Source: a bacterium (GTDB lineage: Bacteria; UBA9089; CG2-30-40-21; SBAY01). Taken from it: a stretch of DNA of 64,000 bases. Positions 1 through 64,000 of the stretch are shown piece by piece. The DNA lies in contig JBFLYA010000001.1 of NCBI GenBank assembly GCA_040757115.1, forward strand, positions 21,130 through 85,129, written 5' to 3'. The notes beneath the pieces were generated by a model. It saw only the letters and a list, made by a program, of their open reading frames with translations, was not told where the DNA came from and did no database searches. The translations under genes and the position numbers were made by a program. The stretch's first letter is position 1, and the number at the start of each line of letters is the position of its first letter.

Positions 1-3000
1 CCAAAACCATTACCTGTAACCGTAACTATTGTCCCTACTGTAGCTACCGCAGGAGTAACTGAAGTAATAACAGGTTTAATTCTAAATGATTCCGTAGCAA
101 AGTTAAGTGGACAGGTAGCAGTAATTAAGGTATTACCACTCTGTTGCGTATTAACCGTAAAGGTAATGGTAAATGTTCCTGAGGCATTAGCAGAAACCGT
201 AGTAATAGACCTGGTAGTTCCAAAATCAATCCGCACGGTTGTAGCAGACCCAAAACCATCACCTTCTAATGTTACTATCGTCCCCACTGTGCCTTGTTTC
301 GGTGTAGATGTATAGATTTTTGCCATCACATAGAAGATATTCGATGCCTTCTTATCATCACCTTGTGGTATCGCGTGAGTATATGAATTCCAGGCAGTAA
401 ATGTGGTAGTGCCTGCCGGTTGCTGAATTCTGAAATCATACACACTACTAAATGTTCCCGCCTCACTGGCTGTTCCATAAGCAGGCAGGAGATGATCTAC
501 CTCCCAGTCTTCATCCTTATCTGTTCCAAAATCAACATAAATTCCTTGACTTGCCGCATAGCCTGTGCCAAATAATGTAATTTGTGTTCCTACAGTTCCC
601 TTAGTCGGTGATACCCAGACTAACTCAGGAATTATCTTGAACAGGTCATCTACTCCACCCAGGTCATTATCTTCTACACCAGAAACAGTATCAGTAGCAT
701 AAATAGTCTTTGTCCCATAGAATTGAGTATCAACTGTCCATGTCCCATTAAATTCACCCGTTGGATTTGCCGTTGTAGTTGTAATCGTCCGTGTCCAGCC
801 AAATCCAATCAGCACCTCGCCACCACCGGTATAACCATTACCATAAAGTGCAACTCTCGTTCCCACCGTCCCTTTAGTCGGTGTAATACTAACAATATGT
901 GGCACTATTCGTAAGGTATTTGTAGCTTGTTCACGACCTGTAGGTTCTTTCGGACCAATACCCGTCGCTGTCGTTGTTCCAAAGACCTGAACATCAATGG
1001 TAAATGTCTTTGTCCATGTGCCTGAAGAATCTGTGCTCGCCATAGCAATCGTTTGATTATTACCAAAGGCAATGCGAATGATAGCATTTTCTGAGTAACC
1101 TTTACCTTCGATCGTAATTGTTGTTCCTACAGTGGCGGATTTCGGTGTAAGTGTTGTAATCTTCGGCAGTATAAAGAAATAATTTTGTGCAAACTGTTTG
1201 GTACTGCTACCATAAACGACAATAGTCGTTGTCCCAAATGGTTGGGGAATATCTACTATGTTTTGTAAAAATGCTACAGTAAATGTTCCTTCTGATGAAA
1301 CTCGAACTGGTTCATAAGGAGGTTCGATACCCTCTACTCCATATTCAATATGAATCAATGTCCCATAATTAATCTCTAAATATTCACCATTTCCTAATTC
1401 ATCTCGATGACCATAACCTGTTCCACACACAGTAATAATTCTTCCTACGGTTCCGGTAGTTGGAGTAACTACAGTAATTTCCGGGATAATGACAAAGTAT
1501 CTGTATTGGTCAATACATTTTTGCCAATATTCACCCCATTTATCGACTTCCGAAGTTGTAACTCCGGTAGCAACAATTGTTTTTGTTCCAAAGTATTGCG
1601 TATTTACCGTAAATGTGGTGCTAAATGTCCCTGCATAATTAGTGGTTACCGTTGTTATTGTCAATGTTGTTCCTAAATCTATTTGAACCATTTCTGTCGC
1701 ACCATAACCATCTCCAGTAATGAGAATAACATCTCCAACTTGTGCCTTCCATTTATCTGTTACCACAAAATGTGGTATCTCTGAAGTCCTACTAACTAAG
1801 GTGATATGTGAGGTTATTCTGAATTCATCGTTATCACAATGATTATCCAGATCAACTAAATCAGCCGCAGTTATGGTATGACTACCTGCTGGTTGTTCAT
1901 TCACGGTAAAGGTAACACTAAATGTCCCGCAGACATTTGTTGAGACTTGAGTGATAGTAGTTGTCCAGCCAAAATTTATCCGAACTAAAGCCAAACTCGC
2001 ATAACCATCACCAGCAACTGTAACAATTGTCCCCACTGACTGTGTCTTTGGTGTTACCATCCAGATATGTGAAATTATCTTAAAGCAATCAATATCACTA
2101 TAATCTGGTGTATCCCATAAATCTTGTAATCCTGCTGGTCGGTCACGCTGAGCAATAATTGTCGTTGACCCATAAGGTTGGTCATTAACCGTAAAGGAAA
2201 TGCTAAATGTCCCATTAATATTTGCCAACCGTTGTATCATTATTGGCACAGTGCCAAATTTTATCGTAACGGTGCCATTTCGATGATAGCCATTACCATA
2301 AACCGTAATTGGTAATCCAACCGTGCCTACCGTAGCAGTTACATAAACGATATTATGTGTAATCCTAAATTCCTTATTGAATGAAGTGTTTGATGGTGCA
2401 CCAACAGCAGTTACAGTATGTGTGCCATAACATTGTTCATCAACCGTCCATTGTGTGCTGAAATAACCTGATGCCTGTGAAGTTATAGTCGTAATTGTTC
2501 GATTTGTGCCAAATTCTATGCGGATAAGTTCACTGCTACCATATCCAGTTCCACTTATCTGGACTATTGTTCCTACTGTTCCAGTTTCTGGGGTAATGAT
2601 AATTCCAGGTGTAATGACAAAATATTGATATGCACCAGTAATCTGACCCGTTGCTTTCACCGTTGTCGTTCCCACCGGTTGAGTATCAACCGTAAATGTA
2701 GTACTAAATGTCCCATTTGGTCCTGAGGTAACCGTAGTAATCGTCAGATGCGTGCCAAAATCAATCGTGATAAGTTCTGCTGCCTTATATCCAGTTCCTT
2801 GAACCGTGACGGGTGTTGACACGGGTCCAGAAGATGGCACAACTGATGTAACTTCGGCCATAATAAAGAAATAATTATATGCTAACTCTTTAGACTTATT
2901 TGTCCCTCTACTCCTAACAGTTGTTGTTCCTGCTGGTTGAGTATTAACTACAAATGAATGGAGAAATTGTCCGTTAGAATTAGATGATTGAACCTCTGTA

Positions 3001-39000: not shown

Positions 39001-42000
39001 AATGCTTGTCCACCCACATAACCATTTCCTTCTAATGTTACCCACGAACCAACTGTCCCAGAAGAAGGTGAAACCGATGTAATATTCGCCGTTATAGTAA
39101 ATGTCCCACTTGCTGATATATTAGTAACACTACCATAAGCATTAATAGTTTTTAAACCATAGTCCTGTGTATCAATAGTAAATGTAGTTGTAAATGAACC
39201 TATATTATCTGTAGTTGTTCTTGTAATTGTAGGATGATTCCCAAATGCGATACGAATTCCCTCAACGCATCCAAAACCATTGCCTTTTAAAGTAATAATT
39301 GTCCCTACTGTTCCAGATGAAGGTGTAATTAAGATAATATTAGGACAAATCCTATAAAATTCCCACTTTATTTGCCCACCACCATACACTTTAATCGTCT
39401 TTGTTCCATAGAATTGTGTATCTACGGTAAAGGTAGTTGTAAATGAACCATTGGCATCTGAACTAACCGTTGTAATACTTCCCTTTGTTCCAAAATCAAT
39501 AAATATATCCACACTTGAATTAAATCCATCTCCTTGAACCATAACCAAACTACCGACTGTGCCACTGGTTGGTGTGATAGATATTCTACTGGTAATATTA
39601 AATGTGGCGTAAGAGAAATTGCTCGTACCGTTAGTGAAACCGTAAGCAACAATCGTAGTTATACCAATTGACTGAACATTTACTGTAAAACTAACACTAA
39701 ATGACCCGGCTGCTTTTGTCTGAACAGAAGTAATACTTGGAGTTGTCCCAAAATGTATATAAATAGTTTCCGTCGCCCCATAACCATCACCCCAAACTGT
39801 TACAATAGTTCCTACATTCCCTTCAGTAGGAGTAATCATAAGAATCTTCTGAATTATCTTAAATTCTATATAATTCTCACCTTGGGTTGACAACCCTGTA
39901 GCCTTTATAGATGTAGTCCCAAATCGTTGGGTATCAATAGTAAAGATAGCTGAAAAAGTTCCATTAGCATTACTACTGGCTATAGTTATTGTTCTATAAT
40001 TACCAAAGTTAACTCTTATTTCTTCACTTGCCCCGTATCCATCACCAGTAATAGTAATAATAGTTCCTATGGTTCCAAAAGTAGGAGTAACAGAAGTAAC
40101 CTTTGGTAAAATAGTAAAGAGTCTATCTCTTTCGAGACAAATCTTATGTCCATATACATTTGCAGTTCGTGTCCCTAATGGTTGAGAATCAATCGTAAAA
40201 CTAGTAGTAAATGTTCCTCCAAGTTTCAAACTTGAATCAGTAATTCCAGTACTCATTATAACCATAATACTTGGTGTTGACCCAAAGTTAATTCTAATGG
40301 TTTCAGTAGTATCATATCCTGTTCCTGTAATAGAAACAATACTTCCTACTGTACCTCTATCAGGTGTAATAGTAACATCAGGCATAACTTTAAACCAACT
40401 ATAGATATATTGCCCTGATGCAAAACCACGCGCAAGCAAGGTTTTAGTGCCGTATGGATACTCTTTTAATGTAAAACTTTGTTCAAAACTTCCATCATTA
40501 CCATTACTCCCAAATACTCCAGTCTGTTGTATCAACTCATCATTAATTACAAAATAAATCCGCATTCCTTCTTCCCCAGAACTAGCACCTTCATTTCCAA
40601 AACCATTACCTCTTACCAAAATAGTATCTCCTACCGTCCCAAAACTTGGAGTAACTAATGTAATATTACCTATTATTCTAAAAGAAGCAGTTCCTATTAC
40701 CTGAGATGTAACTCCCGTAGCTTTAATTTCCTTATTTCCATAAAACTGTTGATTAGATGTAAAAGTAATTGTAAAAGATCCACCAGAAATAGTTTGAGCA
40801 ATAACAATTGAAGGTCTATTACCAAAATCAATTTGAACCGACTCATTTGCTTTATATCCTGTCCCATCAATAGTTATAGTAGTGCCTACACTCCCTATTG
40901 TAGGTGTAACTCTAATTACTGGTGTAATCGTAAAAGACCCTACACATAACATACTTATCTTTCCTTCAACTTCGATAGTAGTAGTTCCATAAGGTTGAGT
41001 ATTGATAGTAAATGTAATTGAAAAAGTACCACTTGCACTTGTAGTAGTAGTCGTAATAGTTCGAGTATTACCAAAACCTATTCTAATCTCATCAGCTGCC
41101 CCATATCCATTACCTTTTAGAGTAACGCAACTCCCTACACTACCAGAAATTGGCGTTATTTCAATAATATTAGCCAGTATCTTAAAACTTTGTGTCCCAA
41201 AATGTCCAGAACTAACACCTAAAGCTAAAACAGTAGTACTCCCATAAGGTTGTGGAATATTTATAACAAATGATTTAGAAAATGTTCCATAACTATTAGA
41301 TGTAAGATCCGAAGATTGAACTACATGCGGTTCTGTCCCAAAATCAATTTGAATTCCTTCACTTTTACCAAATCCATTACCCCTAACTGTAATTGTAGTC
41401 CCTATTGTACCTAAGGTAGAAGTAATCATAATCTTCCCTATCACTATAAAAATCTCTGATGTAAATTCTGTTGGATCACTTACATTAGTCGCAGTTACCG
41501 TAGTAGTTGCAGGTTGTTCTTGAATAGTAAATGTAGTAGTAAAAGACCCCGTATTATCTGTAGTAGCCTGAGTGATTGTTCTAATATCTCCAAAATCAAC
41601 TCGAACTAATGTATTTGTCGCATATCCAATTCCATTTATTGTTACTATAGTCCCTACTGTCCCATTATTAGGTTGAAGGCTAATCCTTGGTGCAACTATA
41701 AAATAACTTTCTCCATAAATATTATTTGTAAGTCCCCAGGCAACTATCGTTTTCCTCCCTGAAAATTGTCCTAATGGCACAGTAAAGGTAGTACTAAATG
41801 TACCTCCTAAACCATCAGCAAAATCTACAATTCCACTACTTGTAACAATAGCAATAGTTGAAATATCACCAAAATGAATATGAATAACCTCTTCTAATCC
41901 ATAACCATTACCTTTTATAAGTACTCTTGTAATCCCAGGAGGACCAGATTGAGGAGATATTAAAATTATATTTGGTAGAATTGTAAAATAATTAACTGCT

Positions 42001-45000
42001 AATTTCTCACCAGGATCCCAACCTTTTACTTCAACAGTCTTTGTCCCATATGGCTGAGAATCAACAGTAAATATAATACTAAATGTACCATAAGCAGAAA
42101 TTTCTTCATTCACTGTGCTCTTGTAAAAATTGTTTCCAAAATTTAATGTCATTGAATCATTGGAAGAATACCCATCACCTTTTACAGTCACATATGTCCC
42201 TACTGTACCAGATGAAGGAGTTACTATTTTAACCCTTGGCGTAATAAAAAACCACTCCATTGTATGTGTCCCCAGCGGACCTGAAATCGCCGATGTCCCA
42301 CACTGCATCCCATAGGCATTTAGTGTAGTCAAACCATAGGGTTGGGTATCGATACTAAATTGAACTGTAAATGACCCCATGACATCGGTTGTTGTCAACG
42401 CTATCGTCTTATTTGTCCCAAAGATTATCCGAATTTGCTCATTAGCCATATAACCATTACCCTGCAAGATTACCAGTGTATCTACGGTCCCGGTAGTTGG
42501 CGTGAACGAAATTATCCGCTGACGAATATGGAAATAATAAATAGCCGATGTCCCTGTCCTTATTCCAAACCCGGTAATCGTTGTCGTGCCATAAGGTTGG
42601 GTAGTAACTGTAAATGTGGTCGTGAATGAACCAAATTTAGTCGAAGTTATTGTCGTCACGGTCTTTGAAGTCCCAAAGAGGATATGCACCATCTCCGACG
42701 CCCCATAACCATTACCAGAAACCGTCACCATACTCCCTACCGTGCCTATGGTTGGGGTAACAAAGACAATCCGTGGCTGGATGGTTAATGTCTGGGTAGC
42801 AAAGACTGTTTCCTCAGGGATATTAACATCCGTTGCCTTAATCGTAGTCGTTCCAAAAGGCTGGGTGTCAATGGTAAAGGTAGTGGTGAACGACCCTTCG
42901 GCATAGGTTGAGGTAGTCTGAATAGTAACAATTGTCCCAAAATCTATTCTTATTAAATGCGTCGCCCCAAATCCATTACCGCGTAAAGTGATTATAGTCC
43001 CTACCGTGCCATAATTCGGTGAGACAAGTATAATATTCGGCAGAATCTTTAATCTGTTACTGGCGTTGACGGTTTCATCCTGACTGTAGGCAATAATCGT
43101 AGTTGTGCCAAACGGTTGTGTATCAATAGTAAATGTGGTTGTCCATGTCCCTTCAGCATAAGTTGATGTTGTCTGAATAGTCCGCGTAGTCCCAAATTCA
43201 ATCCGCACCGTTACCGATGCCTCATACCCTGTCCCACGAATAGTAATAATAGTGCCCACCGTTCCTTGCGTGGGAGTAACATAGAATAATTCTGGTAAAA
43301 TTGTAATCGTGCCATACGCCTTTATCCCAATATCATCCTGATGAACAGTAATTGTCTTTAGACTATACGGCTGACTATCTATCGTAAATGTGGTTGTCCA
43401 TGACCCTTCTGCATAAGTCGAAGTTGTCTGAATAGTGCTATTTGTCCCAAATTCTATCCTGACCGTATTTGAAGCACTATAGCCATTGCCACTGATAGTA
43501 ATTACTGTGCCTACTGTCCCTGAAGTTGGTGAGATATAGATAATATTTGGTAAGATAGTCGTGCTACCATAAGCCACTACTACCCCCACCGCAAATTCTA
43601 TATCTTCTGCCATAATCGTTGTCGTCCCATACGGCTGGGTATCTATGGTAAATGTGGTTGTCCATGAACCTTCAGCATAAGTCGAGGTTGTCTGAATAGT
43701 CTGAGTCCTCCCAAAATCTATCCGAATCGTATGTGATGCCCCATAACCATTACCCCTAACCGTGATTATACTTCCTACCGTTGCCTGTTTAGGTGTAACT
43801 AAAATGATATTGGGCAGAATAGTAAATGTGCCATCTGATTTTATACCTATATTATCTTGATGTGCGGTGATAGTTGTAATCCCATATCTTTGTGTATCAA
43901 TGGTAAAGGTGGTAGTAAATGAGCCGTGGAGTGTGCTTGTCACCATCACGATAGTAGGTGTAGTGCCAAAGGCTATGCGTATCGATTTTGATGTGCTATA
44001 ACCATTCCCACTGACTGTAACCTTTGTTCCCACCGTTCCTTCTTGAGGGAAAATCCAGATAATATTTGGCTGGATAGAGAAGGATAGGTCATCATCCGAA
44101 ATCGTAGATTCTGTTCCGTAAGCAATGATAGTAGTCGTTCCATAAGGCTGAGTATCTACGGTAAATTTAACTGTAAACGACCCAAGCCCATTGACATGAG
44201 TGGTAGTAATCGTCCGTGTCGTTCCAAAATGTATGGCTACTGTCTCCGATGTCTTATAACCATTTCCTTTAACCGTAACCCAACTTCCTACTGTGCCTGT
44301 AGTTGGTGTAACCGAAATAATCCGTGCTATAATCGTGAAATAATCCCAGTTTAAAACACCTGTTACACTTCCCACCGCCGTAATAGTTGTTGACCCATAC
44401 ATCTGTGTATCGACGCTAAACCAGGTCGTAAATGAACCATAAGCCTCAGTAGTTGTTGTATTTATTGTCTTAGTTGTCCCAAAATGTATATAAATCTTCT
44501 CCGTCGCACCAAATCCATTACCTCTAACCGTAATCCTATCTCCCACTACACCAGTTAGAGGCGTAACCAAAATAATCCTGGGTAAAATACTCACTGTCCC
44601 TTCTGCCTGGATATGCGGGTCATATCCATGGGCAATTACCGTTGTCGTTCCATAAGGCTGGGTAGTAATGGTAAAGGTGGTGGTAAATGACCCTTCGTAG
44701 GCAGAGGTGACAAATTGGATACTGGAAGTCGTCCCAAATTCTATCATCACCGTATCTGATGCCTCATAACCATTACCAGAAATAGTAATTACTGCCCCGA
44801 CGGTGCCTGATTTGGGTGTAATCTGAATAATATTTGGTAAGATGGTATAAGTTCCAACAGCCTCTTCACTACCATGTGCCTTAATCGTAGTAATCCCCCA
44901 CGGCTGGGTATCAATGGTAAAGGTAGTAGTAAAACTACCGTATTCCTGGGTTGAGGTAAACTGAATACTTGTAGTTCTGCCAAAATCTATGGTTACGGTT

Positions 45001-48000
45001 TTTGAGGCGCCAAATCCATTACCGCTGACCGTCACTATTGAACCTACTGTGCCTGATTTAGGAGTAATCAAGATAATATTGGATTCAATACTCAATGACC
45101 CGTAACGATGTAAATCCTGGTCATCACCATGAGCACCAACCGTAGTTGTCCCATAAGGTTGCGTGTCTATTGTCCAGGTAGTGGTAAATGACCCCTCAGC
45201 ATAAGTCGAAGTTATCTGAATAGTCCTATTTGTCCCAAATTCTATCCGTATCGTCCTTGAAGCAGCATAACCATTCCCGGCAATAGTAATTATTGAACCT
45301 ACTGTTGCTGATTTAGGTGTAATCAGGATAATATTGGGTAGAACGGTTATCGTCCCTTCACAATGCAGGTTCTGGTCATCACCATGGGCTTTGACACTGG
45401 TGGTGCCATAAGGTTGGGTATCGATGGTAAATGTCGTAGTCCATGAACCCCGGGCATAGGTTGAGGTAAATTGAATAGTAGGTGTTGTCCCAAACTCTAT
45501 CCGAATCGTCCGACTTGCCCCATAACCATTACCACGAATAGTGATGATTGTTCCAACTGTGCCTTGTGTAGGTGTAATCACGATAATATTTGGCAGAATA
45601 GTTACAGTGCCCGCAGAGTTAATTATCTCTGTCCCTGTTCCTTTTCCGTAGGCAGTAAAGGTAGTAATACCATATTGTTGGGTATCTATGGTAAATGTAG
45701 TGGTGAAACTACCCTGTGCTACAGATGTAACCGTCTGAATTGTCCGACTGGTCCCAAAATCTATACGAATGCTATCCGTAGCAGAATAACCATTCCCGCT
45801 AATGGTAATCACCGTTCCTACCGAACCTTGAGTTGGAAAGATGTAAATAATATTAGGTGTGATAGTAAATGACCTGTCAAAAGCTGATTCACCAGGAATA
45901 CCTCTATCTCTACCAGTGATAGTAGTCGAGCCATAAGGTTGTGTAGTGATAGTAAAGAAAGTGGTAAATGAACCATGATGATAGGTAGAGGTAATAATTA
46001 GTGAAGGTGTAGTGCCAAAATCTATCTGAACCAGGTTGGTGGCACTATAGCCATTACCTCTAACCGTAACCAATGAACCAACACTCCCTGCCCTCGGTGT
46101 AACCAGAATAATATTTGGCTTAATGAAGAAGGTTTGAGTATATGACCCACCACTATCTATCCCGGTAGAGATAACCGTAGTTGAACCTGCTGGCTGGGTA
46201 TCGATAGTAAAGGTAGTAGTAAATGAACCGGTGTAATCAGCCGTAGTTACTGCGATAGTAAATGTCCTGCCAAAACTCACCCGAATAGTCTCACTTGCCT
46301 TGTATCCCTGTCCATTGACTGTCACCTCTTTTCCTACCGTGCCAAAAGTAGGTGTAATGGTTAATCTGCTGGTAATAGTAAATGTAGCTGAAGCATCTGG
46401 CCAGGTAAAATAGGTTCTAAGTTTATGGCCCATTGCCTTGATTGTAGTTATACCTACTGGCTGAATATTTACGGTAAACTGAGTAGTAAATGTCCCATCC
46501 TCTGTTGTAGTTATTCCCGTAGTAATACTATGGGTCGTGCCAAAATCCAGCTTAATTGTTTCGGTTGCCCCATATCCCGCACCCTCTACCGTCACTACCG
46601 TGCCTACAGAACCTGATAAGGGTGTAGTGACTAATAAACGAGGGATGATGATGAATGTGCTTGTGGCCCTAATATCAGATATTCCTATTGAATAAACGAC
46701 TACAGCAGTAGTTCCCGCCTGTTGTTGATCCACAGAAGGTATCGGTTGAATGTATGACTCACCATCTAAAGGTGCCTTGCCTCCATAGACTCCAATCTTT
46801 TTCCCAAAATCATAACGAAGATCATCATTTCGGAAATAACCATCATAATAAATTGTAATGTTAGTTCCAACAGTTCCTATTGAAGGTGACACTTCTCTAA
46901 TCCTCTGGATTATCTTAAAATCACTCTGGAGACTTCTACCACTTTGGACACCAGATACAGTAATCGTTGTGCTTCCGTAAGGTTGGGTATCTACAGTAAA
47001 GGTAGTAGCAAATGTCCCAAATCTATTAGAGGTGACTGTGGTAATCGTCCCCTTAATCCCAAATGCTACCTCTATCTTCTCTGATGCCCCATAGCCATTT
47101 CCTTGCACGGTCACAATCGTGCTTACCGTCCCAGTAACCGGTGAAACTAAAGTAAGTTTCTCTGTAATCACAAAAGTCCAGGTGCCGTGTCCCTCCCCCG
47201 TTTCCCAGTCACCATACCACGGATAGGAATTGAGCCCAATACCAACAATAGTCGTTGTTCCATAAGGTTGTTCATTTACCGTCCAACTCACTGTAAATGT
47301 CCCATCTGATGATGGAGTAGTGATTGTAATTGTTCCCGTAGTCCCAAATAATATATGCACCTGTTCATTACTCCCATAACCATTTGCCGTAATAGTAACC
47401 TTAGAACTAACGGTTCCCTCAGGAGGAGCGACATTAGTAATCTTTGGCATAATCACATATAAGAACTTCTCCGATTGACGACCAGAACCCTGACCTATAA
47501 CTACAATAGTTTTGGTCCCAAAACATTGTATATTAACATCAAAAGCAACTGTAAATGAGCCGGAAGAAGTAGCCGTAGCCCCAGTTGGATATAATTGTGC
47601 TCCAACAAATTCTGAAATACCAAATTTAACCTTTAGCGATTCTCCTCCTTGATATCCATCACCATATAATGTAACTCTACTTCCAACTGTTCCTGAGGAA
47701 GGCGTAACCTCAAAGATGCGAGGTAAGACATAAAATGTTGCCGTAGAAAAGACACCAGAAACTAAATCTATTGCCCATATAGTTGTCGTTCCTGGCTGGG
47801 TATCTACAGTAAAGGTAATCGTAATTGAACCAGAAGAAAGGGCGGTTACCGTGGTAATCGTCTCTGTTGTCCCAAACTTTATCTGCACAAGCGAACTACC
47901 ACTATAACCATTCCCATAAACGGTTACAATCGTCCCTACTGTGCCTTGGGTAGGGGTAATAGAAACGATATTAGGCAAGATAAAGAAAGAAGATGTAGCC

Positions 48001-57000: not shown

Positions 57001-60000
57001 CTTGCATCTTTATCCCGAGCTACCACTGTCACACTACCATAAGGTTGGGTATCCACAGTAAAGGTTTTGGAAAATGTCCCATAAGCAGAGGTAGTAAATG
57101 TCGCTCTCACCGATAATAAACCACCAAAGGTGATTGTTCCCATAGTCCCTGTCCCAAAACCACTACCTGTTACACTTACCACACTCCCTACTGTTCCTTC
57201 TGCAGGTGTAATTACAACTAACGCCGATATAACACTAAATGTCCCCGATGACTCTCTGCTGGAAGTCATACCTCTTGCCACTATTGTTCTTAATCCATAA
57301 GGTTGGTCTTGCGTGGTAAAGATAAGACTAAATGTTCCTGAGACATTACTTGTTCCAGTTTTTATATTACTTATGTTACCAAAATTTACTTGAATTTGTT
57401 CACTTATCCCATATCCTTGCCCCAATATAGTAACAAGAGTCCCAATTGTTCCAGAAGTTGGTGTAACTTGATAAATCGATGTTTGAACATAAAATCCTAT
57501 CGTGTTTGTAGCCCCCGAGGTCATACCCCGAGCGGTAATAGTAGTCGTTGCTGGCTGCTGTAAGACAGTCAGTATAATTGAAAATGTTCCCGCACCATTT
57601 GTATTAGTAGTCCAAACATCTATGAACGAACCAAAATCTATCTTAATTTGTTCATTGGCTTTATAACCATCACCATATAAAGTTACAAGAGCACCTACTG
57701 TTCCCGTAGTTGGTGTTACATTTATATTACTAATAATAGCAAATGCAGTGCTGGTAGCTCGTGCCCCTGATTGCCCTACAATGACAATGGTAGTTGTTCC
57801 CATTGGTTGTCTATCAACTGTAAAGGTATGTGTAAAAGTCCCGTTTATAGATGTTGTCTTACTACCTCGCCAATTTGTTGTTGGTGTCCCAAAATAAATA
57901 TCAACTGTCTCACTACCTCCATAACCATTACCTGAAACAGTTATCACTGAAGTTACAGTACCAATAGTAGGTGTAACCTCAATTATATTAGCTAAAATAG
58001 TAATACTACCTGTTACTATTTGACCAGAACTCCCTTGCCCCTCAATTGAAACTGTTGTCGTTCCATAAGGTTGAGTATCTACTGTAAATGTCATACTAAA
58101 TGTCCCATTATTAGATGCTATAGTGTTATTCCTTGGTTGCACAGTTGTGCCCAACTTAATAACTACAGTTTCATTATCCCCACTATATCCATCCCCTTCT
58201 ACAGTAACAGTAGAACCAACTGTCCCTGATTTAGGAGTTAGTAATGTAATCTGAGCAGTAATCTTAAATTCTGTCAGCTTCTCCTGGAAGGAATTTGATA
58301 TGCCTTTGACTCTAACCGTCTTACTCCCATACGGCTCTAAGGGGATAGTGAAGGTGATGGTGAATGAACCCGCGTCATTACTCGTGACTACCGTAGTTAA
58401 TGTGCCAGTCGTCCCAAAGACTATATTTATCTGCTCATTGGCATCATATCCTGTTCCGTTTATCGTTACCAGTGTCCCGACAGAGCCTTGTGCCGGGCTA
58501 ACAGGGGTGATACTGGATTGAATAGCAAATGTAGTGGTAGCAGATTGCCCTGTAGCTACACTGGTTGCGGTTATTGTATGTGTCCCAAATCGCTGGGTAT
58601 CTATCGTAAAGGTAGTCGAGAATGTCCCGCCTGCAGTAGTTGTAACCAATTGAATCGTCTTTGTTTCGCCAAAATCTATTCTCACTTGCTCGGTAGGAGC
58701 ATAATGGTCTCCCGTTACCGTTACCACTAAACCAACTGACCCAGTTGTTGGAGTAACAGTAATTGCCCTTACTGTCTGGAAGGTAACTGTGGCTACATAC
58801 TGCGTAGTTGCAGTTAAAACCTGATAGAATATCTTTGAGGTATTGGTGATATATCCTGTTTTACTAACCCTCAGGGTCAATGTCCCGGTATCATCTAAAC
58901 TTGGGTCAATGGCTATCGTAGCAGTTCCACCAACGGTAGTTGATTTTGTAGTACTACCATAAACATCTGCCAGTGATGTTGTCGCGGTCATCACTTCTAC
59001 CTTTGCATCATCTACTGCATTACCAAATTCATCCGTAACCACTACCTTCAAGACAAACTTTAACCCATTCCCTTCACTGGCTAAGAAAGTAGGTAGTGTT
59101 TGTGTGCCACCAGTAGAAGTGCCAACCTGACTCCTGGTCGTGGTGACATAACCTTTCTTGGCGTATTGTGCCTGGAAACCAGTCCCTGTACCAACCGCTA
59201 TGTACCAGGAAGAGGTTGATGTCCCCCATCTTGGTCCTGCAATATAAGGTAATTGTGTGGTTGACCCTGGGATGAGTAATTTCACCGACTCGGTGCCAGT
59301 TGAAGGACCTTGTAAGGTCAAAATCGCCCCTAACTCATCCTGCACTGTATCTATTTTCACCGCATACTTCAAAGCACCATCCGGTCCCATAAATTTAGGT
59401 CGCATCTGTAAAGTCTTGCTCGCCGAAACCGAAGCAGTTGACATGGTCACAACATACCCATCCTTCCAATATTGTGCCCAAACTTCCGTCCCGGTAGCGG
59501 CAATATACCAATTCCCACTACTGAATGTTTGTGTCCCACCATCGAGATAAGTAACCTCTTGTGTTCCCGCTGATGTCCCAAACAACCTCACCGTATCCGT
59601 AGCCACAGGGGTTAAAGTGACATCCAATTCATCCTTAACATCACCTGTGGAAATCTTGAAAGCAAATTGGAGTTGTCCTCCTTTGTAGTCTATATCAGGA
59701 AACTTAGTAGAATTTCCTTTATAAGCAATTTTCGGTTGATAAAAATCATCTAGTGGGAATATCTCAGTTATTGTTCCTACATATCCATATTTATCTATCC
59801 TCAATTCAGACTGTGTCGTTACCGTAGCTGCAATATAACCAATTCCAGTACTGGTAATAGTAGCATCAAGAATAGCAAATCCAGTAGAAGAAAAGGAAGT
59901 ATTAGTTCCAGAAAGAGTCAGTGTCCCATCTAACTCATTTAAAGCACCAAGAACTTTTATCGCAAACTCCATACCTTTAATAGAAGTAGTCCCTACTTGA

Positions 60001-63000
60001 GAAATATAGGTAGTAGTTGCAGGATAGTTACCTAATTCAATTATTCTCTGCCCATCAGAAGAGGTAGTAATACTCCCTATACCAGTATTAGTCTCTGTTG
60101 CATTTACCCAACCTTTTCGGCAAATAGACAATCCTCCACCTGGACCTGCAGTATCATCCCAGTAAAAAACATTAGTTGTGGAAGTAGAAGGATTAATACC
60201 TCTAAAGGTAATTGTGCCATTTCCTCCACCTGTTTCAAGATTATCCCAGTTAAATCCTGCACTCTGCCCTAACTCATCACAAACGATTACCTTTAACCCA
60301 TAAGGTAATCCTGGGGCATCATATTTTGCCCCCAAATCTATAGCACCTGAATCATAATCCACAGTAGCCTGTGTACCTGCAGAAAGGGTAAGAGTTGCTC
60401 CTGTAGTCACAAATCCTGTTACTGTAAGATTTAATGTCCCATAAACAGTCGTTGTTGCCGCTATATATCCTATTCCACCTTGAATTGTCCATGTCCCAAT
60501 TACAAATCCTCCCGGAACAGCGGTATATCTAGCCAAATTAGCAGTATTATACGTTTGCATAATTGTACTTGTCCCACCTAATTCATCAGTGATACCTATG
60601 ACCTTGATATTAAATTCCATACCTTTAATGGTATAGGTGGTGGATGTTGGGATAGGATTAGTAGATAGAATAGTAGTGGTAGATGTCATATTGATCCAGA
60701 CTTGATTAGATGTGCCGGTAGTAATAGTCCCAAGATTAAAATGAGTTGCCGTAGCATTAACATATCCTGCCTTCTGGAGGGTAAATGTGCCTGCCCCTCC
60801 AGTATCTGCCCAGTATAAGGTAGTTCCAGTATAAGTAGCTGGGGGATTACCTCTAAATTTGGCTAATCCAAGGTTAGGATAATCAAACCCTGTTGTCCAA
60901 CCAAGTTCATTCCTAACTGTAACCTTCAATCCAAACTTCATTCGTGGTCCAATCTGATTAGCGGTAAGAAATTCTGTTGCTGTCCCAAAAACAACCGTCG
61001 TCTGGGTACTACCTGTAGGGGCAAAGGATACACTCGTATCTATGTACCCTGGTCTTTTTACTGTCAATGTTCCCCAGGTAGTAGGACTCCCAGCAATATA
61101 CCAGATATTATTTTGTAGAGTTATAGTAGCTATTCTAAAACCACCTTCTTGAGTATCAAACGAAATTCCCGTAGAGGTCATTGTCCTACCTAATTCATCT
61201 GTTACTCCTAAAACTTTGATATTAAATTCCAAACCTTTGATAGTATAAGTAGCTTTATCCTGCCCTGGAGATTGATAGATATTATTAGTTTGAATAGTAG
61301 TTGTATTACCAAAGTTAATGATGATTTGGGTTTCAGACCCTGTTTCAATATATTGCAATCCTGAATGTGTAGTGGTAGCATTTACATAGCCTGTCTTTTG
61401 AATCTGTAATTCCTTTAGTGTTCCCATCTCTGGATCTGCCCAATATAATATATTCGTGCCTGTGGATGCATCCATGGCTCTTCCATTAAACTTAGCCAGC
61501 AATAAAGTTGAACTCGCAAGTGGATTACCTAATTCATCTGCTACTATTACCTTCAAGCAAAATTTCAACGGAGGACCTAGAGAGTCCACCCCCTCCCATA
61601 ATGGACTATAAGCTACCTTACATATCCCTCCTAGAGCACCATAACCATCCTCTGGTGACATACTATCCGTTGTTGTTGCGCGTACATAACCAGGCATAAT
61701 AATGCTTAAGTAACCTGGAGTATAACTTCCTGCTATATAACCTATTCCATCTTTCACCGTTTGGGCAATAATCCCAAAGCCTGAAGAATTAAAGATAGTA
61801 TCTGTTGTCATCGTCATTGTCGCCAACAATTCATTCTTTATCCCAATTACATTTATATTAAATTGCATCCCTTTAATAGAATGTGTTCCTGTAGTAGAGA
61901 TTGACCCTGCTTTAGCACTAAAACTACCAAACTCAATAATTGTTTGTGCATTAGCAGATGTAGAAATTGTCCCTAAAGCATCATTTGTTTTCTCGGCTCG
62001 TATATATCCTATTTTTTGAATATTCAATACCCCAGATGTTGTAGTTTGAGTATCTAACCAATATAATATATTCCCTGAAGTAATTGTTGGAGTTCCCCCT
62101 CTAAAGGTAGCAGTTCCTAACTCAAGATAACTAAATCCAGTAGTACTTCCGAACTCATCTGCGACTATCACCTTTAATCGGAATTTTAATGGGTCAAATG
62201 TTATTATATTTGGCGAGTCCAAACTTAAACTAATTGCACCAGTAGCACTTTTTACATATCCTGGAACAGTAATAGTTAGAGTTCCTGTAGTCGTAGGACT
62301 TCCTGCAATATAACCTATACCATTTCTTACTGTTTGAGTAGCAATATCAAATCCTGAATCTGTCGCTGTCCCAAACAAAATACCTCCATCTACTAAAGTT
62401 ACAGTTCCATTTAATTCGTTCTTGACCAATTCTACCTTCATTGAGTATTTCAAACCACTGGTTAGTGCCGAACTACCAGCAGGAATCTCAGTTCCACCAA
62501 GAGTTTGTGTACCTTTCATAGTAACAACTGTTTGTGTTGCATTAGATAATTTCACAAGATTTAACGGCCCACCTGAAACTTGCACATACCCTGTCTTTGT
62601 CGCCCCCAATCCAACAGAGGTAACCGCCAGAACAAAATAATACTCATTTCTATTTATTCCTGCATTTGAATAAGTTGGATCATACCAATTAGCTCCCGAT
62701 TTCCTCCGAACAGTTACTTCTGTCAATGGATTTTCTATCTCATCGTATGTAAGTACCTTCAATATACACTCTAACCCTTTAATCGCATAAGTCCCAGGTG
62801 TAGAGATGGAGGCTGTTTGAATCGTCTTGGTCGCATTATCACCACCTAAATCTATCACAATCTGCCCTGATGATGTGCCGGTAATCCCACCGGCGGTAGT
62901 AATGTCTAATCCTGAATGTGTCTTGTTTGCATATACATAACCACTCTTTAAAATAGATAATGTTGCTGGTGTCCCCATCGTATCCGCCCAGTATAATGTG

Positions 63001-64000
63001 GTTGTACCAGCAGTAACTGTATAAGTACTCGGTTCCACTCCTCTAAATGTCTTTGGACTCAAATCAGTAGCTAACAATCCATTCCCCAACTCATCCCGGA
63101 CTATCACTTTCAAAGCAAACTTTATGCTCCCTAAATTTACCTCTTTCTGCACCGTATTATCATAGCCAAGCTCTACTGATGTCGTCTTGACATACCCATT
63201 TACTACTAAGGTAATCGTTCCAGAAGTCCCTGTAGCGGCAATGTATGCAAAACCATCACTATAAGTAGCAGGAGCAATCCATGTAAGATTAGTCAAGGTA
63301 AGTCTAGTAGTATTAGTCGCTGTCAAAGTTATCGTCCTCTCTAACTCATCCTTCGCACTTACCTTGAATCCAAACTTTATGCCATAAAAAGTGACATCAG
63401 TTCCCGCAGATACTGTCCCAGTAGTTGTTCCTACATAGCCTGCTACTGTTAAAGTAATCTGCCCTGTCCCTGTCGCCGCTACATACGCATAACCACTATC
63501 ATAAGTATCTGGCTCGGTCCGATTAAGTCCTGCACCTAAAGTAATAGTAGTAGTTGCCTCTCTTAGGTATATCCAATTACCTAATTCATCATAGGCAGAT
63601 ATCTTAAATCCACGACATATACCCACAAAATTTACTGGTGTCTGAGTAGTAGATGCATAATTTAATGATTCAGAAGTCGTTCCGCGATAGCCGCTTACTA
63701 CCAGAGTCATCGTTCCTGCAGTTCCTGTAGCGGCAACATACGCATAACCTGCACTATAAGTAGCTCCATCTATCCAATTAAGATTAGTCAAGCTAATAGT
63801 CGAAGTAGCCGCAGTTAAAGTAAGAGTATTACCCAACACATCCTTCGCACTGACCTTAAACCCATACTTTATCCCCACTAATGTCTTCTCTACCTGACTT
63901 AATGACCCATAGGTAAAGGTCGTCCCGGTAGCTATATACCCGGTCACCGTTACTGTCCCTTTATCTTCACCTGTCCCCGCAAAATATAATGCCCCTTCAC
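1..64000 (-). CDS. Internal part of a giant IPT/TIG-repeat surface protein (both ends beyond the window)
   Basis: One minus-strand frame (codons with lowest coordinate divisible by 3) is read from position 63998 to 3, about 21,332 codons, with no start or stop of its own in the window. Phase was checked at over 25 places and never changes, and no in-frame stop was met. The N-ward 5.2 kb encodes Ig-like modules with DELGN motifs. The remaining 58.8 kb encodes about 225 TIG-type Ig-like domains (SPTxGTVGTxVTV, GNGY/F, IxFGTT, TFTVDTQPYGTTTI). TIG domains are known in extracellular and surface proteins, so an exported, rod-like adhesin or fibre is inferred. There is no enzyme motif, transmembrane stretch or signal peptide in this part. 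Composition is Thr/Gly/Ser/Val/Ile-rich and cysteine-poor. The gene fills the window, so no neighbours or regulation can be seen. Function is inference; the continuous frame and repeat class are firm. Confidence 0.95.
1165..1484 (-). repeat. TIG unit with a long mid-domain insertion
   Basis: VTPTTGTVGRIITVCGTGYG is followed by HRDELGNGEYLEINYG and an acidic, proline-containing loop (EYGVEGIEPPYEPVRVSSE) before GTFTVAF. The HRDELGN stretch resembles the DELGN motif of the N-ward modules, probably by chance. The frame is open throughout. Confidence 0.6.
1485..1812 (-). repeat. TIG unit with a substituted N-terminal segment
   Basis: Starts ITLVSRTSEIPHFVVTDKWK then AQVGDVILITGDGYGATEM. The P-x-x-GTVG segment is replaced by a longer, charged stretch, though a VGD turn remains. 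The linker after DTQ-type strands is also long (TSEVDKWGEYWQKCIDQY). It is the fifth unit from the C-terminal marker of superrepeat 1. Confidence 0.62.
3122..3408 (-). repeat. TIG unit with an insertion inside the GTVG turn
   Basis: Where neighbours have PTSGTVGTIVTV this unit reads PTSGVVEALIVATTGEKIYS then IVTVTGNGYGATEGI. That adds roughly 15 residues (positions about 3,324-3,380, checked codon by codon). The following strands (GFGNTGTITM, GSFSMTFTV, DTQVYGTKTI) are normal. Confidence 0.68.
5803..13054 (-). repeat. Superrepeat 2 of 5: 28 TIG domains
   Basis: Opens with marker unit IWKVELSEG, ANGYPKEGLVWIGFGTT and GSASNTYKILP (5,803-6,055). The fifth unit upward is preceded by DRDNHQYSRSFRIEVNI (7,360-7,415). 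YEYEGKPINDY lies at 7,755-7,795, and the tenth unit has SGDGYSGGGEQYVWIDFG (8,560-8,700). STYAEG-type units crowd 11.0-12.2 kb. Protein and DNA of the marker unit are close to those at 13,055-13,310, so superrepeats 2 and 3 look like the most recent pair. Confidence 0.82.
7628..7912 (-). repeat. TIG unit with YEGKPIN loop
   Basis: SGDGYRANDDIWIQFG is followed by DPDYEYEGKPINDYLEAS and then GTFTVYFTVNSQAYGTTSV. This was checked codon by codon at 7,743-7,800. It is the counterpart of the YEGQPID unit in superrepeat 3. The counterparts in superrepeats 4 and 5 (about 22.25 and 27.77 kb) have unrelated loops (YYIFTGSSTN, QDMVADGRQAN). Confidence 0.72.
13055..20269 (-). repeat. Superrepeat 3 of 5: 28 TIG domains
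   Basis: Opens with marker unit IWKVELTEG, ADGYPKEGLVRIGFGTT and GFATNTYKILP (13,055-13,310). The fifth unit upward is preceded by KHKADEWFRIEVDI (14,595-14,642). The next unit but one carries WPYEGQPIDGY (15,000-15,050). The tenth has VWGDGYEGGGNSIKLW (about 15,840-15,940). Compared with the 21-domain blocks it carries about six extra STYAEG-type units (18.05-19.4 kb) and one extra NGYGSATTVRIDFG unit (20.0-20.27 kb). Confidence 0.82.
14868..15156 (-). repeat. TIG unit with YEGQPID loop
   Basis: After VTVMGDGYKVSDQIRLYFG the unit inserts NETNWPYEGQPIDGYSNAS and resumes GTFTIYFTVNSQPYGSTSV. The matching unit in superrepeat 2 (7,628-7,912) has DPDYEYEGKPINDYLEAS and GTFTVYFTVNSQ. The shared YEGxPI loop, about 7.25 kb apart, is strong evidence for block duplication. 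Confidence 0.72.
20270..25794 (-). repeat. Superrepeat 4 of 5: 21 TIG domains
   Basis: Opens with the marker unit IWFVSPKIG, TIEATGFSSSETVRIAFG and DFATNTFKILP (20,270-20,530). The fifth unit upward is preceded by LGHRSVGDDWRFWIDVQI (21,835-21,890). The tenth has VWGDGYRNYKAPNYYAS with a long insertion (22,863-23,198). A single STYAEGSFST unit (about 25,130) and a TLRGIGYKENE unit (about 25,460) close it. It resembles superrepeat 5 most closely in both length and marker sequence. Confidence 0.8.
22863..23198 (-). repeat. WGDGY-type TIG unit with long loops
   Basis: Reads SPTSGTIGTVVTVWGDGYR, then NYKAPNYYASPNRIAIHFG, then a loop YGEPGGVVEDTVQIPTANIG before the FSAIFTI strand. It is the tenth unit from the marker in superrepeat 4. 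Equivalent positions in the other superrepeats (about 2,950-3,115, 8,417-8,702, 15,655-15,940 and 28,388-28,670) also have (W/S/R)GDGY and a variable, aromatic or glycine-rich loop. Confidence 0.65.
25795..31220 (-). repeat. Superrepeat 5 of 5: 21 TIG domains
   Basis: Begins at its C-terminal edge with the marker unit IWSVSPQQG, TIKATGYSSSETVRIAFG and DPATNTFKILP. Counting units upward, the fifth is preceded by the linker GHTSEEKWKFRIEVHI (27,350-27,400). The tenth has VITIWGDGYSYYQTYPAQ (about 28,590-28,670). The last two units below the next marker are QLDSITPTEG (leucine-rich TLRGVGY variant) and QIFDPIPTSG. This order matches superrepeat 4 unit for unit, which supports descent from a block duplication. 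Confidence 0.8.
36960..37245 (-). repeat. TIG unit with a replaced first strand
   Basis: Starts HLVHLDPETKQVLSSIPEKP then EGSDILILGTGYGVTEQIKIVFG. The GTVG turn is gone and a charged, lysine/glutamate-containing loop takes its place. The closing hairpin is PEGYPVGPQTITATG instead of DTQPYGTTTI. Together with the two units at 38,020-38,578 it forms a local cluster of abnormal domains. Confidence 0.65.
38020..38290 (-). repeat. TIG unit with altered GTVG turn
   Basis: Reads IIYPTLGGIENYVGDVVEV and then RGNGYGANENVRIQFGNS. The P-x-x-GTVG segment is stretched by about four residues (IENYVGD), while the later strands are canonical. It directly follows, in protein order, the unit that lost GTVG altogether. 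Confidence 0.65.
38291..38578 (-). repeat. TIG unit that has lost the GTVG motif
   Basis: The N-terminal PTxGTVGT segment is replaced by LDADLITYGNQNYCWEGY followed by GAGISGNGFGATETI. I checked this codon by codon at 38,463-38,578. The rest (HFGTVGSITI, FGSFTVQFTI, DTQPYGTTTI) is normal. One cysteine and one tryptophan appear in the replaced stretch. The frame stays open, so this is a sequence change and not a break. Confidence 0.7.
42523..46377 (-). repeat. Homogeneous STYAEG-rich TIG segment, about 15 units
   Basis: About 15 units are unusually similar. Many contain RTIQTTSTYAEGSWTTTFTI followed by DTQPYGTTTI, with linkers such as KAHGDDQ, TAHQDDIG or KAHGSEE (for example near 45,450, 45,200, 43,660, 43,400, 43,150 and 42,900). 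Similar clusters occur at about 11.0-12.2 kb and 18.05-19.4 kb, and single copies near 25.13, 30.55 and 51.65 kb. The homogeneity suggests recent tandem amplification or gene conversion of one domain type. Confidence 0.8.
46643..46908 (-). repeat. Divergent TIG unit lacking the TFTVDTQPYG hairpin
   Basis: Keeps SPSIGTVGTNITIYYDGY, then reads FRNDDLRYDFGKKIGVYGGK, and ends SVDQQQAGTTAVVVY. The GSFTTTFT strand is absent or unrecognisable (DGESYIQPI instead) and the usual GNGY is YDGY. It is the most basic and aromatic unit I noted. Flanking units are ordinary. Confidence 0.6.
49065..49398 (-). repeat. TIG unit with a tryptophan-rich insertion
   Basis: Starts as a normal unit (SPTTGTVGTSVTVEGTGY, YIAIDFG) but then inserts about 30 residues including QGAAGASSPSWADDEWEWH and RSMSSDYNKG before returning to EVDTQPYGITSI. 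Three tryptophans and several acidic residues lie close together on a loop between strands. I checked the frame codon by codon here and it is open. A binding loop is possible. Confidence 0.65.
55645..55907 (-). repeat. Divergent TIG unit with acidic, aromatic core
   Basis: Keeps SPNYGTVGITVNVYGNG, but the usual ExVxIxFGTT strand is replaced by EYYFSQFEEESEVGQYD. The QPYG hairpin becomes TYPFGMRIIKIRG. It is acidic and tyrosine/phenylalanine-rich where neighbours are threonine-rich. It may be a ligand-specific unit or simply a decaying one. Confidence 0.6.
58770..59671 (-). repeat. Three transitional Ig-like units and junction to the TIG array
   Basis: Three units open with LQFAFKISTGDVKDELDV, LKYAVKIDTVQDELGA and LKFVLKVVVTDEFGN, about 300 nt apart. 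The first two carry a GxWYIA segment and an AQY-KKGYV or AQYWKDGYV strand. The last differs: it has DDAKVEVMTA, then GTATIAIDPSLDDTGTLTL and KTGYITN, like a classical Big_1 or carboxypeptidase-regulatory unit. A linker (YQVLTATTQYVATVTFQTV) leads directly into the first TIG domain at RAITVTP (58,749-58,769). This marks a clean change of repeat family inside the same frame. Confidence 0.75.
59672..63140 (-). repeat. Alternating A/B Ig-like modules, two-unit period near 630 nt
   Basis: Type A units open with IKGMEFNIKVIGITDELGG-like sequence (starts near 61,880, 61,250, 60,630 and 59,990). Type B units open with LKFxLKVIVADELGN-like sequence (near 63,135, 62,190, 61,570, 60,950 and 60,300). B units also carry KFRG or KFNG, an LYWADxxG motif (near 62,990, 62,050, 61,440, 60,815 and 60,170), a GYVNATxTHxG strand and a closing INFGNTTTI-like strand. 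Successive B motifs lie about 633, 626 and 621 nt apart, so the duplicating unit is an A+B pair of about 210 aa. Units near 62,737 (IKGLECILKV) and 62,413 (LKYSMKVELVKNELNG) are diverged variants. A structural spacer or surface role is inferred. Confidence 0.75.
63141..64000 (-). repeat. Three short Ig-like units, most N-terminal part visible
   Basis: Three consecutive units of about 250 nt (about 83 aa) begin with GIKYGFKVSAKDVLGN, GICRGFKISAYDELGN and GIKFGFKVSAKDELER (near 63,880, 63,635 and 63,390). Each continues through an ATYS-GYAY or similar segment, AATGT, then a TITLVVNGYV-type strand. The tail of an earlier unit runs off the window edge at 64,000, so the array continues upstream. 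The pattern (a strand, DELGN, a G-Y-x-Y-x-AATGT turn, then a VxGYV strand) suggests a beta-sandwich of the invasin/Big or carboxypeptidase-regulatory type. I cannot assign the exact family without a profile search. They are shorter and more alike than the units that follow. Confidence 0.75.

Follow-up and report, generated by a model that had tools for sequence, protein, structure and literature searches.

A giant TIG/IPT-repeat gene, likely encoding a secreted surface protein of about 46,000 residues, in a Desantisbacteria-related bacterium

Introduction

Giant genes are a known kind of bacterial gene. The giant protein of Chlorobium chlorochromatii has about 36,800 aa (the figure also quoted in the original prediction for this locus), that of Velamenicoccus archaeovorus has 39,678 aa (PMC10066038), and giant genes encoding up to 85,800 aa have been reported in the PVC group and related candidate phyla (PMC12057145). 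SprB of Flavobacterium johnsoniae, a gliding adhesin of 6,497 aa, is exported by the type IX secretion system (T9SS; PMC9870892). Other large adhesins include MpAFP of Marinomonas primoryensis (1.5 MDa, ~120 repeats) and the 7,651-aa adhesin of Mobiluncus mulieris (PMC4083281, PMC10619420), and TIG has been described as a stalk domain of fibrillar adhesins (PMC9210967).

Here, we analyse a 64,000-bp stretch of DNA, hereafter the window, which corresponds to positions 21,130–85,129, i.e., the last 64 kb, of contig C1 in a 4.3-Mb bin of 462 contigs (genome G000). The window was compared with G001, an independently assembled second genome from another species of the same genus. It likely represents the interior of one real, selected giant gene for a secreted surface protein of ~46,000 residues in a Desantisbacteria-related bacterium; secretion and surface role are inferred, and no transcript or protein data are available. 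The open frame, the start and stop codons, the domain array, the collinear orthologue and purifying selection are established directly. Among the papers found in a search of the Desantisbacteria literature, none describes a giant gene.

As in the giants of Omnitrophota and other candidate phyla, tens of thousands of codons are set in one frame in an uncultured bacterium, and a surface role is proposed (PMC10066038, PMC12057145). In contrast to the V. archaeovorus giant, the protein has no convincing transmembrane stretch beyond the signal peptide, consists of ~94% TIG and is collinear between species. It resembles SprB in its very large size and, by inference, in being a filamentous surface protein with SprA/PorV-type secretion and a C-terminal sorting domain, and a PorV-like gene adjoins it. 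However, it is about seven times longer than SprB, is built of a TIG array and belongs to another phylum, and neither GldM nor motility has been shown. Long rows of Ig-like domains that would act as an extender are shared with MpAFP and the M. mulieris adhesin, and the structure matches large-adhesin repeats (5irb, 6xi3). The repeats of MpAFP are identical and Ca2+-dependent, whereas those of the window are diverged, of the TIG type and low in Asp, and the domains are about four times as many. Sequence family and fold both match the TIG/IPT domain (PF01833) of cyclodextrin glucanotransferase, but the usual TIG/IPT proteins carry one or a few copies, and here ~486 copies occur in one chain. What is new is the near-pure TIG array, the probable, inferred T9SS export of so large a cargo and the strong mosaic divergence between species.

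Results

A single open frame spans the window

Read on the minus strand from window coordinate 63,998 downwards, the window holds a single frame of 21,332 complete codons (3..63998, minus strand), which contains no stop, is open at both ends and has a collinear orthologue in G001. None (0/3,274) of the forward TTA, CTA and TCA triplets falls at a coordinate divisible by 3, while ~1,428 in-frame stop triplets are expected from base composition alone. The other five frames contain 855–2,714 stops each, and no open stretch on the plus strand exceeds 177 codons. No tRNA gene was found in the window, and no Rfam family matched, so no intron or structured RNA was recognised.

The same frame occupies all 85,129 bp of contig C1, where it runs for 28,375 codons and is open at both ends. 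The giant-gene threshold, an uninterrupted frame of >20 kb, is thus exceeded both in this contig (85.1 kb) and in the joined frame of G001 (~133 kb). Thr makes up 18.5% and Cys 0.3% of the encoded residues. The original prediction, made from sequence alone, had claimed one open reading frame across all 64 kb with both ends open, a constant phase and a gene missed by gene callers that need both a start and a stop; all three claims held. Its minimum of ~21,300 residues also held but was an understatement, given the 28,375 codons on the contig and the ~45,800 residues pieced together below. It located neither end of the gene, did not describe the make-up of the protein and had no support from a second species, all of which are added here. 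The contig extension that it proposed was carried out: the frame reaches both contig ends and, as the right edge of the window coincides with the end of C1, extension on that side required another contig. The true ends were found via other contigs and the second species.

Gene ends, orthologue and full length

In G000, contig C25 ends inside a frame that opens with MDTESSRPNQHN, preceded by a ribosome-binding-like site (AGAAAGG) and followed by a hydrophobic leader. The charged leader and its hydrophobic stretch, IIKGLLSLFVIGTVVFCFN, which are conserved in G001, satisfy the requirements of a signal peptide, as judged by inspection without SignalP. The repeats that follow the leader in C25 are those found at the start of C1, and the two contigs have exact stretches of 68 and 53 bp in common. 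Scaffold C1 of G001 features the same leader (METESSKPNQHN) downstream of the same neighbouring genes as in G000, followed by a 100-N scaffold gap and a frame of 21,049 codons. Upstream of the giant gene, both species also have short and partly disrupted leader copies (G000:C25:5544-6408, locus L018, and G001:C1:69233-70569), whose first 42 residues are up to 90% identical.

An exact overlap of 127 bp connects the G001 contigs C1 and C2, and the joined frame spans 44,499 codons without a stop. Overlaps of exactly this length are typical of neighbouring contigs in an assembly graph built with k=127. Apart from one ~2,450-residue insertion, G000:C1 can be aligned in order and over its full length to positions 0–25,908 of the joined frame, and it passes without a break through the point where the G001 contigs C1 and C2 meet, at ~90% identity. 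At the other end of the gene, G000:C29 holds 8,268 codons with an open 5' end; it aligns to positions 37,158–44,499 of the joined frame and then runs on to ...VYIFRMIISNNEGKTMSKLGKIAVIR and a stop, beyond which lies a PorV-family gene. G001:C2 therefore bridges G000:C1 and G000:C29. In G001, contig C323 carries the stop and the last 665 residues (92% identity) and, behind them, the orthologue of this PorV-family gene; G000:C29 and G001:C323 thus have the same C-terminal tail and the same downstream neighbour.

The length in G001 amounts to 336 + 44,499 + ~269 missing + 665 = 45,769 residues, to which a scaffold gap of undetermined but probably small size must be added. The giant protein, pieced together from two related species, is thus very likely ~45,800 residues long (~4.9 MDa). 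In G000, the known parts sum to 463 + 28,375 + 8,268 = 37,106 residues, which is the minimum for the genome of the window itself. The length there remains uncertain, as a search with 20 kb of G001:C2 recovered no G000 counterpart at orthologous identity for the middle of the gene, which has ~11,250 residues in G001. The best G000 match to this middle, C29 at 68%, is paralogous and was rejected as the orthologous segment. If the missing middle is as long as in G001, the G000 protein could reach ~48,400 residues. Start and stop do not occur together on any one contig, and the N-terminal junction is supported by the scaffold gap and synteny. The original prediction had ranked the protein among the largest bacterial ones while noting that larger ones were reported, and this held: there is little doubt that the protein is longer than the 39,678-aa giant of Velamenicoccus and the ~36,800-aa one of Chlorobium, and shorter than the reported 85,800 aa, and hence not the record.

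Soundness of the assembly

All contigs derive from metagenome-assembled genomes, contig ends lie in repeats, no long reads are available and one link, between C1 and C29, rests on the second genome. An assembler could in principle have chained diverged repeat contigs from several smaller genes into one frame. Several observations make this very unlikely. Within the 85-kb contig, no exact internal repeat exceeds 44 bp, with just 32 repeats of ≥25 bp; Tandem Repeats Finder reported one diverged two-copy array and one 25-bp match. Repeats of 44 bp are shorter than the 127-bp contig overlap of the sister assembly, so a normal short-read assembler can get past them safely, and a repeat-collapse artefact in C1 is very unlikely. 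Breaks in the contig set do occur at near-identical repeats: C29 contains exact repeats of as much as 173 bp, and the left end of C25 is a further example. When the 3' end of C1 was compared with the ends of other G000 contigs, no overlap of assembler length was found among those compared, only chance-level matches of 14–17 bp that joined unrelated contigs.

Misjoins would be expected to break the frame in two-thirds of cases. Moreover, the order agrees between two separately assembled species across 25,900 residues, where the offset shifts only slightly except at the one ~2,450-residue insertion. Independent contig-long frames also occur in two order-mates: in G004, one contig is filled by a frame of 19,075 codons and a second by a frame of 11,115 codons, in G005 a contig is filled by a frame of 18,588 codons, and the long arrays of the two are mutually collinear. 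The concern raised in the original prediction, that the repeats might be an assembly chain, is largely removed by the repeat lengths and the second species, in the absence of long-read data.

Selection on the frame

Comparison of C1 with G001 yielded a total dN of 0.18 and dS of 0.58 over 25,497 aligned codons, and dN/dS per 300-aa block is mostly 0.1–0.5. When ~277 orthologous pairs of the 85-residue repeat were stacked, pN/pS ranged from 0.00 to 0.84 at 84/84 well-sampled positions, and the core Gly, Phe, Pro and Gln residues of the repeat had values of 0.00–0.1. Positive selection on loops, a possible sign of a recognition function, was not seen, as the top pN/pS is 0.84. Such constraint throughout the aligned length very likely reflects a protein that is translated and folded, although expression is untested.

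Alternatively, a real frame might lie in a repeat region that is decaying or not expressed, and owe its openness to chance or recent amplification. Recently amplified arrays can stay open, and there are no expression data. This reading is nevertheless very unlikely: the repeats of C1 are old and diverged (mostly 65–75% DNA identity), yet never broken, the block-wise dN/dS values are low and pN/pS at core residues is near 0 over the stacked pairs.

Repeat architecture and fold

Three kinds of repeat make up the protein. The N-proximal part of the frame (58758..63998, minus strand; residues 1–1747) is not of the TIG type and, as defined by motif spacing, contains 17 diverged repeats of ~80–117 aa that open with [GP]LKFxLKV-type motifs. 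The same repeat type is found at the left end of C25, the contig that carries the start codon. This region has no Pfam match above the cut-off, and its AlphaFold2 model was unusable (pLDDT 34), probably because only six sequences were aligned.

The rest of the window is filled by an unbroken array of 224 complete TIG/IPT Ig-like domains (60..58757, minus strand), identified with our own HMM, with a median spacing of ~85 aa and no gap >60 aa. The same HMM found 305 domains in the whole C1 frame and 486 in the G001 gene, in which the array makes up 94% of the sequence and nowhere has a gap >60 aa. Pfam TIG (PF01833) matched 18 stretches of one 5,000-aa piece (E=4.3e-72, 238.6 bits vs a cut-off of 20.9). 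Three consecutive repeats (44823..45578, minus strand; residues 6141–6392) were modelled with AlphaFold2 from an alignment of window repeats only. The model has a pLDDT of 95.5 and consists of all-beta Ig-like sandwich domains. Its structural matches are tandem Ig-like proteins, including large-adhesin repeats (5irb, 6xi3), invasin and an S-layer protein (7ptp), and a single domain matches the TIG domain of cyclodextrin glucanotransferase (1kck) at 2.6 Å over 83 residues (Z 9.2). Together, the HMM array and the model fulfil the definition of a fibrillar-adhesin stalk of tandem Ig-like domains.

Ahead of the C-terminal tail, ~1,900 residues belong to a third repeat type. A transmembrane scan of C1 revealed no convincing stretch besides the signal peptide; one 19-residue segment passes the hydrophobicity threshold (1.84 vs 1.8) and is located in a beta-strand repeat. 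In the order of its domains, the predicted protein would thus comprise the signal peptide and ~2,000 residues of diverged N-terminal repeats, ~486 tandem TIG/IPT domains of ~85 aa, the third repeat type and a putative T9SS-like C-terminal sorting domain.

Duplication and mosaic divergence

The first 2,947 nucleotides of the window (1..2947, minus strand) have a 75% identical copy outside it, at contig positions 15514–18472. In the DNA self-match and the protein self-alignment, the offset of this segmental duplication is ~1,870 aa (1,870–1,872 aa in the protein), and internal duplications of ~1,810, 1,870 and 2,410 residues are visible. Divergence between G000 and G001 varies strikingly inside the gene, from 1 to 67% per 100 four-fold sites, with a variance of 336 vs 23 expected, while dS of the flanking orthologues is mostly 0.06–0.28. 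Diverged blocks remain in register, and their best match is mostly at the orthologous position; they therefore resemble exchanged old alleles and not shuffled repeats. We propose that the array would grow and turn over by segmental duplication and block-wise recombination, and that the mosaic divergence between the species results from these processes. A contribution from mixed strains in the bins is possible.

Probable type IX secretion

The PorV-family gene adjoining the giant gene scores 131.7 bits (cut-off 90), and the C-terminal tail resembles the C-terminal domains of PorU and PorZ (PorU C-terminal domain, E=3.4e-11). Against Por_Secre_tail, the tail scores 16.1 bits (cut-off 23), and matches to FlgD_ig and CHU_C are also below cut-off. 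G000 encodes a SprA/Sov-like protein of 2,011 aa, which scores 193.3 bits against TIGR04189 (cut-off 200; E=4.5e-57) and matches the SprA structure 6h3i in the PDB (E=6e-20). Genome-wide, 19 PorV-family hits exceed the cut-off. Dozens of G000 proteins, many of them large repeat proteins, have PorU-like C-terminal tails, a much expanded set of T9SS-like cargo. No match to GldM was found in the genome, and control genomes were also silent, so this result is uninformative; the PorU equivalog gave only partial matches, none over the cut-off.

A T9SS-like route is the best inference because of the tail, the neighbouring PorV gene, the SprA/Sov-like protein, the 19 PorV-like genes and the many similar tails. 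Type IX secretion is probable, not proven, as SprA and the tail fall just under curated cut-offs; it is an inference, and export is untested. In this model, the protein would first use Sec and then a SprA/PorV-type T9SS.

Relatives and other giant repeat genes

The long arrays of G004 and G005 are not collinear with the gene of the window, and no positional orthology with them was found (6 and 4 ordered neighbours of ~90 windows). Collinear only with each other, they suggest that giant arrays are maintained or built separately in the sister family. In this family, G004:C111, G004:C222 and G005:C336 (loci L052-L059) are contigs of 33–57 kb, each formed by one TIG-repeat frame. G004 corresponds to the public isolate 'Yes70-11', with an exact match of the 14,885-bp locus L033 in its contig, and a weaker relative comes from Candidatus Desantisbacteria CG2_30_40_21. 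The description of the window's organism as Desantisbacteria-related is based on this pair.

Other large repeat genes occur in G000. A second giant ORF of 9,835 codons (G000:C17:2226-31730, plus strand, loci L072/L073) starts inside its contig, is open at the 3' end and seemingly has a repeat type other than that of the TIG giant. Large TIG-type genes run off the ends of contigs C87, C152, C122 and C177 (L016, L020, L017 and L015; 3,268, 1,791, 3,334 and 1,449 codons, respectively). A GCG-type repeat variant common to C152 and C122 hints that these two may carry the two halves of a single gene.

Discussion

The most likely role of the giant protein is that of a surface fibre, either an adhesin stalk or a cell coat, a reading that is inferred, as there are no binding data and no adhesive head was recognised. 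No adhesive domain was found among the Pfam matches of the pieces scanned, which cover part of the protein and leave the N-terminal region unresolved. Ig domains measure ~4 nm each; on this basis, a chain of ~490 domains anchored by its C-terminus would protrude as a thin string of beads ~2 micrometres long and may attach the cell to surfaces, matrix or other cells.

Two other functions may be considered. First, the product of the single gene might serve in predation or as a cell-to-cell weapon, a role suggested for the giants of Omnitrophota; giant ORFs of related candidate phyla have been linked to predation or cell attachment (PMC10066038, PMC12057145). This is unlikely: in the pieces covered by the scans, no match above cut-off pointed to an enzymatic, carbohydrate-active or transmembrane domain (the Pfam scan was partial and the N-terminus unresolved), and the array is nearly pure TIG. 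Second, cleavage of the exported chain might release many Ig-domain fragments, which would then assemble into an S-layer-like sheath. S-layer proteins contain tandem Ig-like domains, with 7ptp among the structural matches, and processing is plausible from size alone. However, neither a conserved spacer nor a repeated cleavage motif was found, and the array is gapless at the 60-aa limit throughout, which makes the sheath an improbable alternative to the surface fibre.

A bolder version of the surface-fibre reading can be put forward, which is possible but somewhat less likely than not on present evidence. In this version, the near-pure array of ~490 TIG domains would be exported whole via T9SS outside Bacteroidota, as a micrometre-long recombining fibre whose mosaic blocks pass from lineage to lineage, as would alleles of a surface involved in recognition or exposed to phages. 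To our knowledge, no larger T9SS cargo has been proposed, and the giant protein would then be by far the largest.

The giant gene is unusually clean in composition and comparative support, and its product is among the longest bacterial proteins with comparative evidence of selection over most of the length, evidence that bears on whether giant ORFs are real proteins. The block-wise divergence provides a natural record of recombination within a single gene. If the surface fibre is exported whole, the question arises of how the cell transcribes ~137 kb and translates the product; at typical textbook rates, transcription and translation of ~137 kb take ~50 minutes each. A further question is how such a chain would be kept unfolded and passed through an outer-membrane pore. 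Because the repeat is simple, the question is testable, and a single antibody or peptide set would detect the protein.
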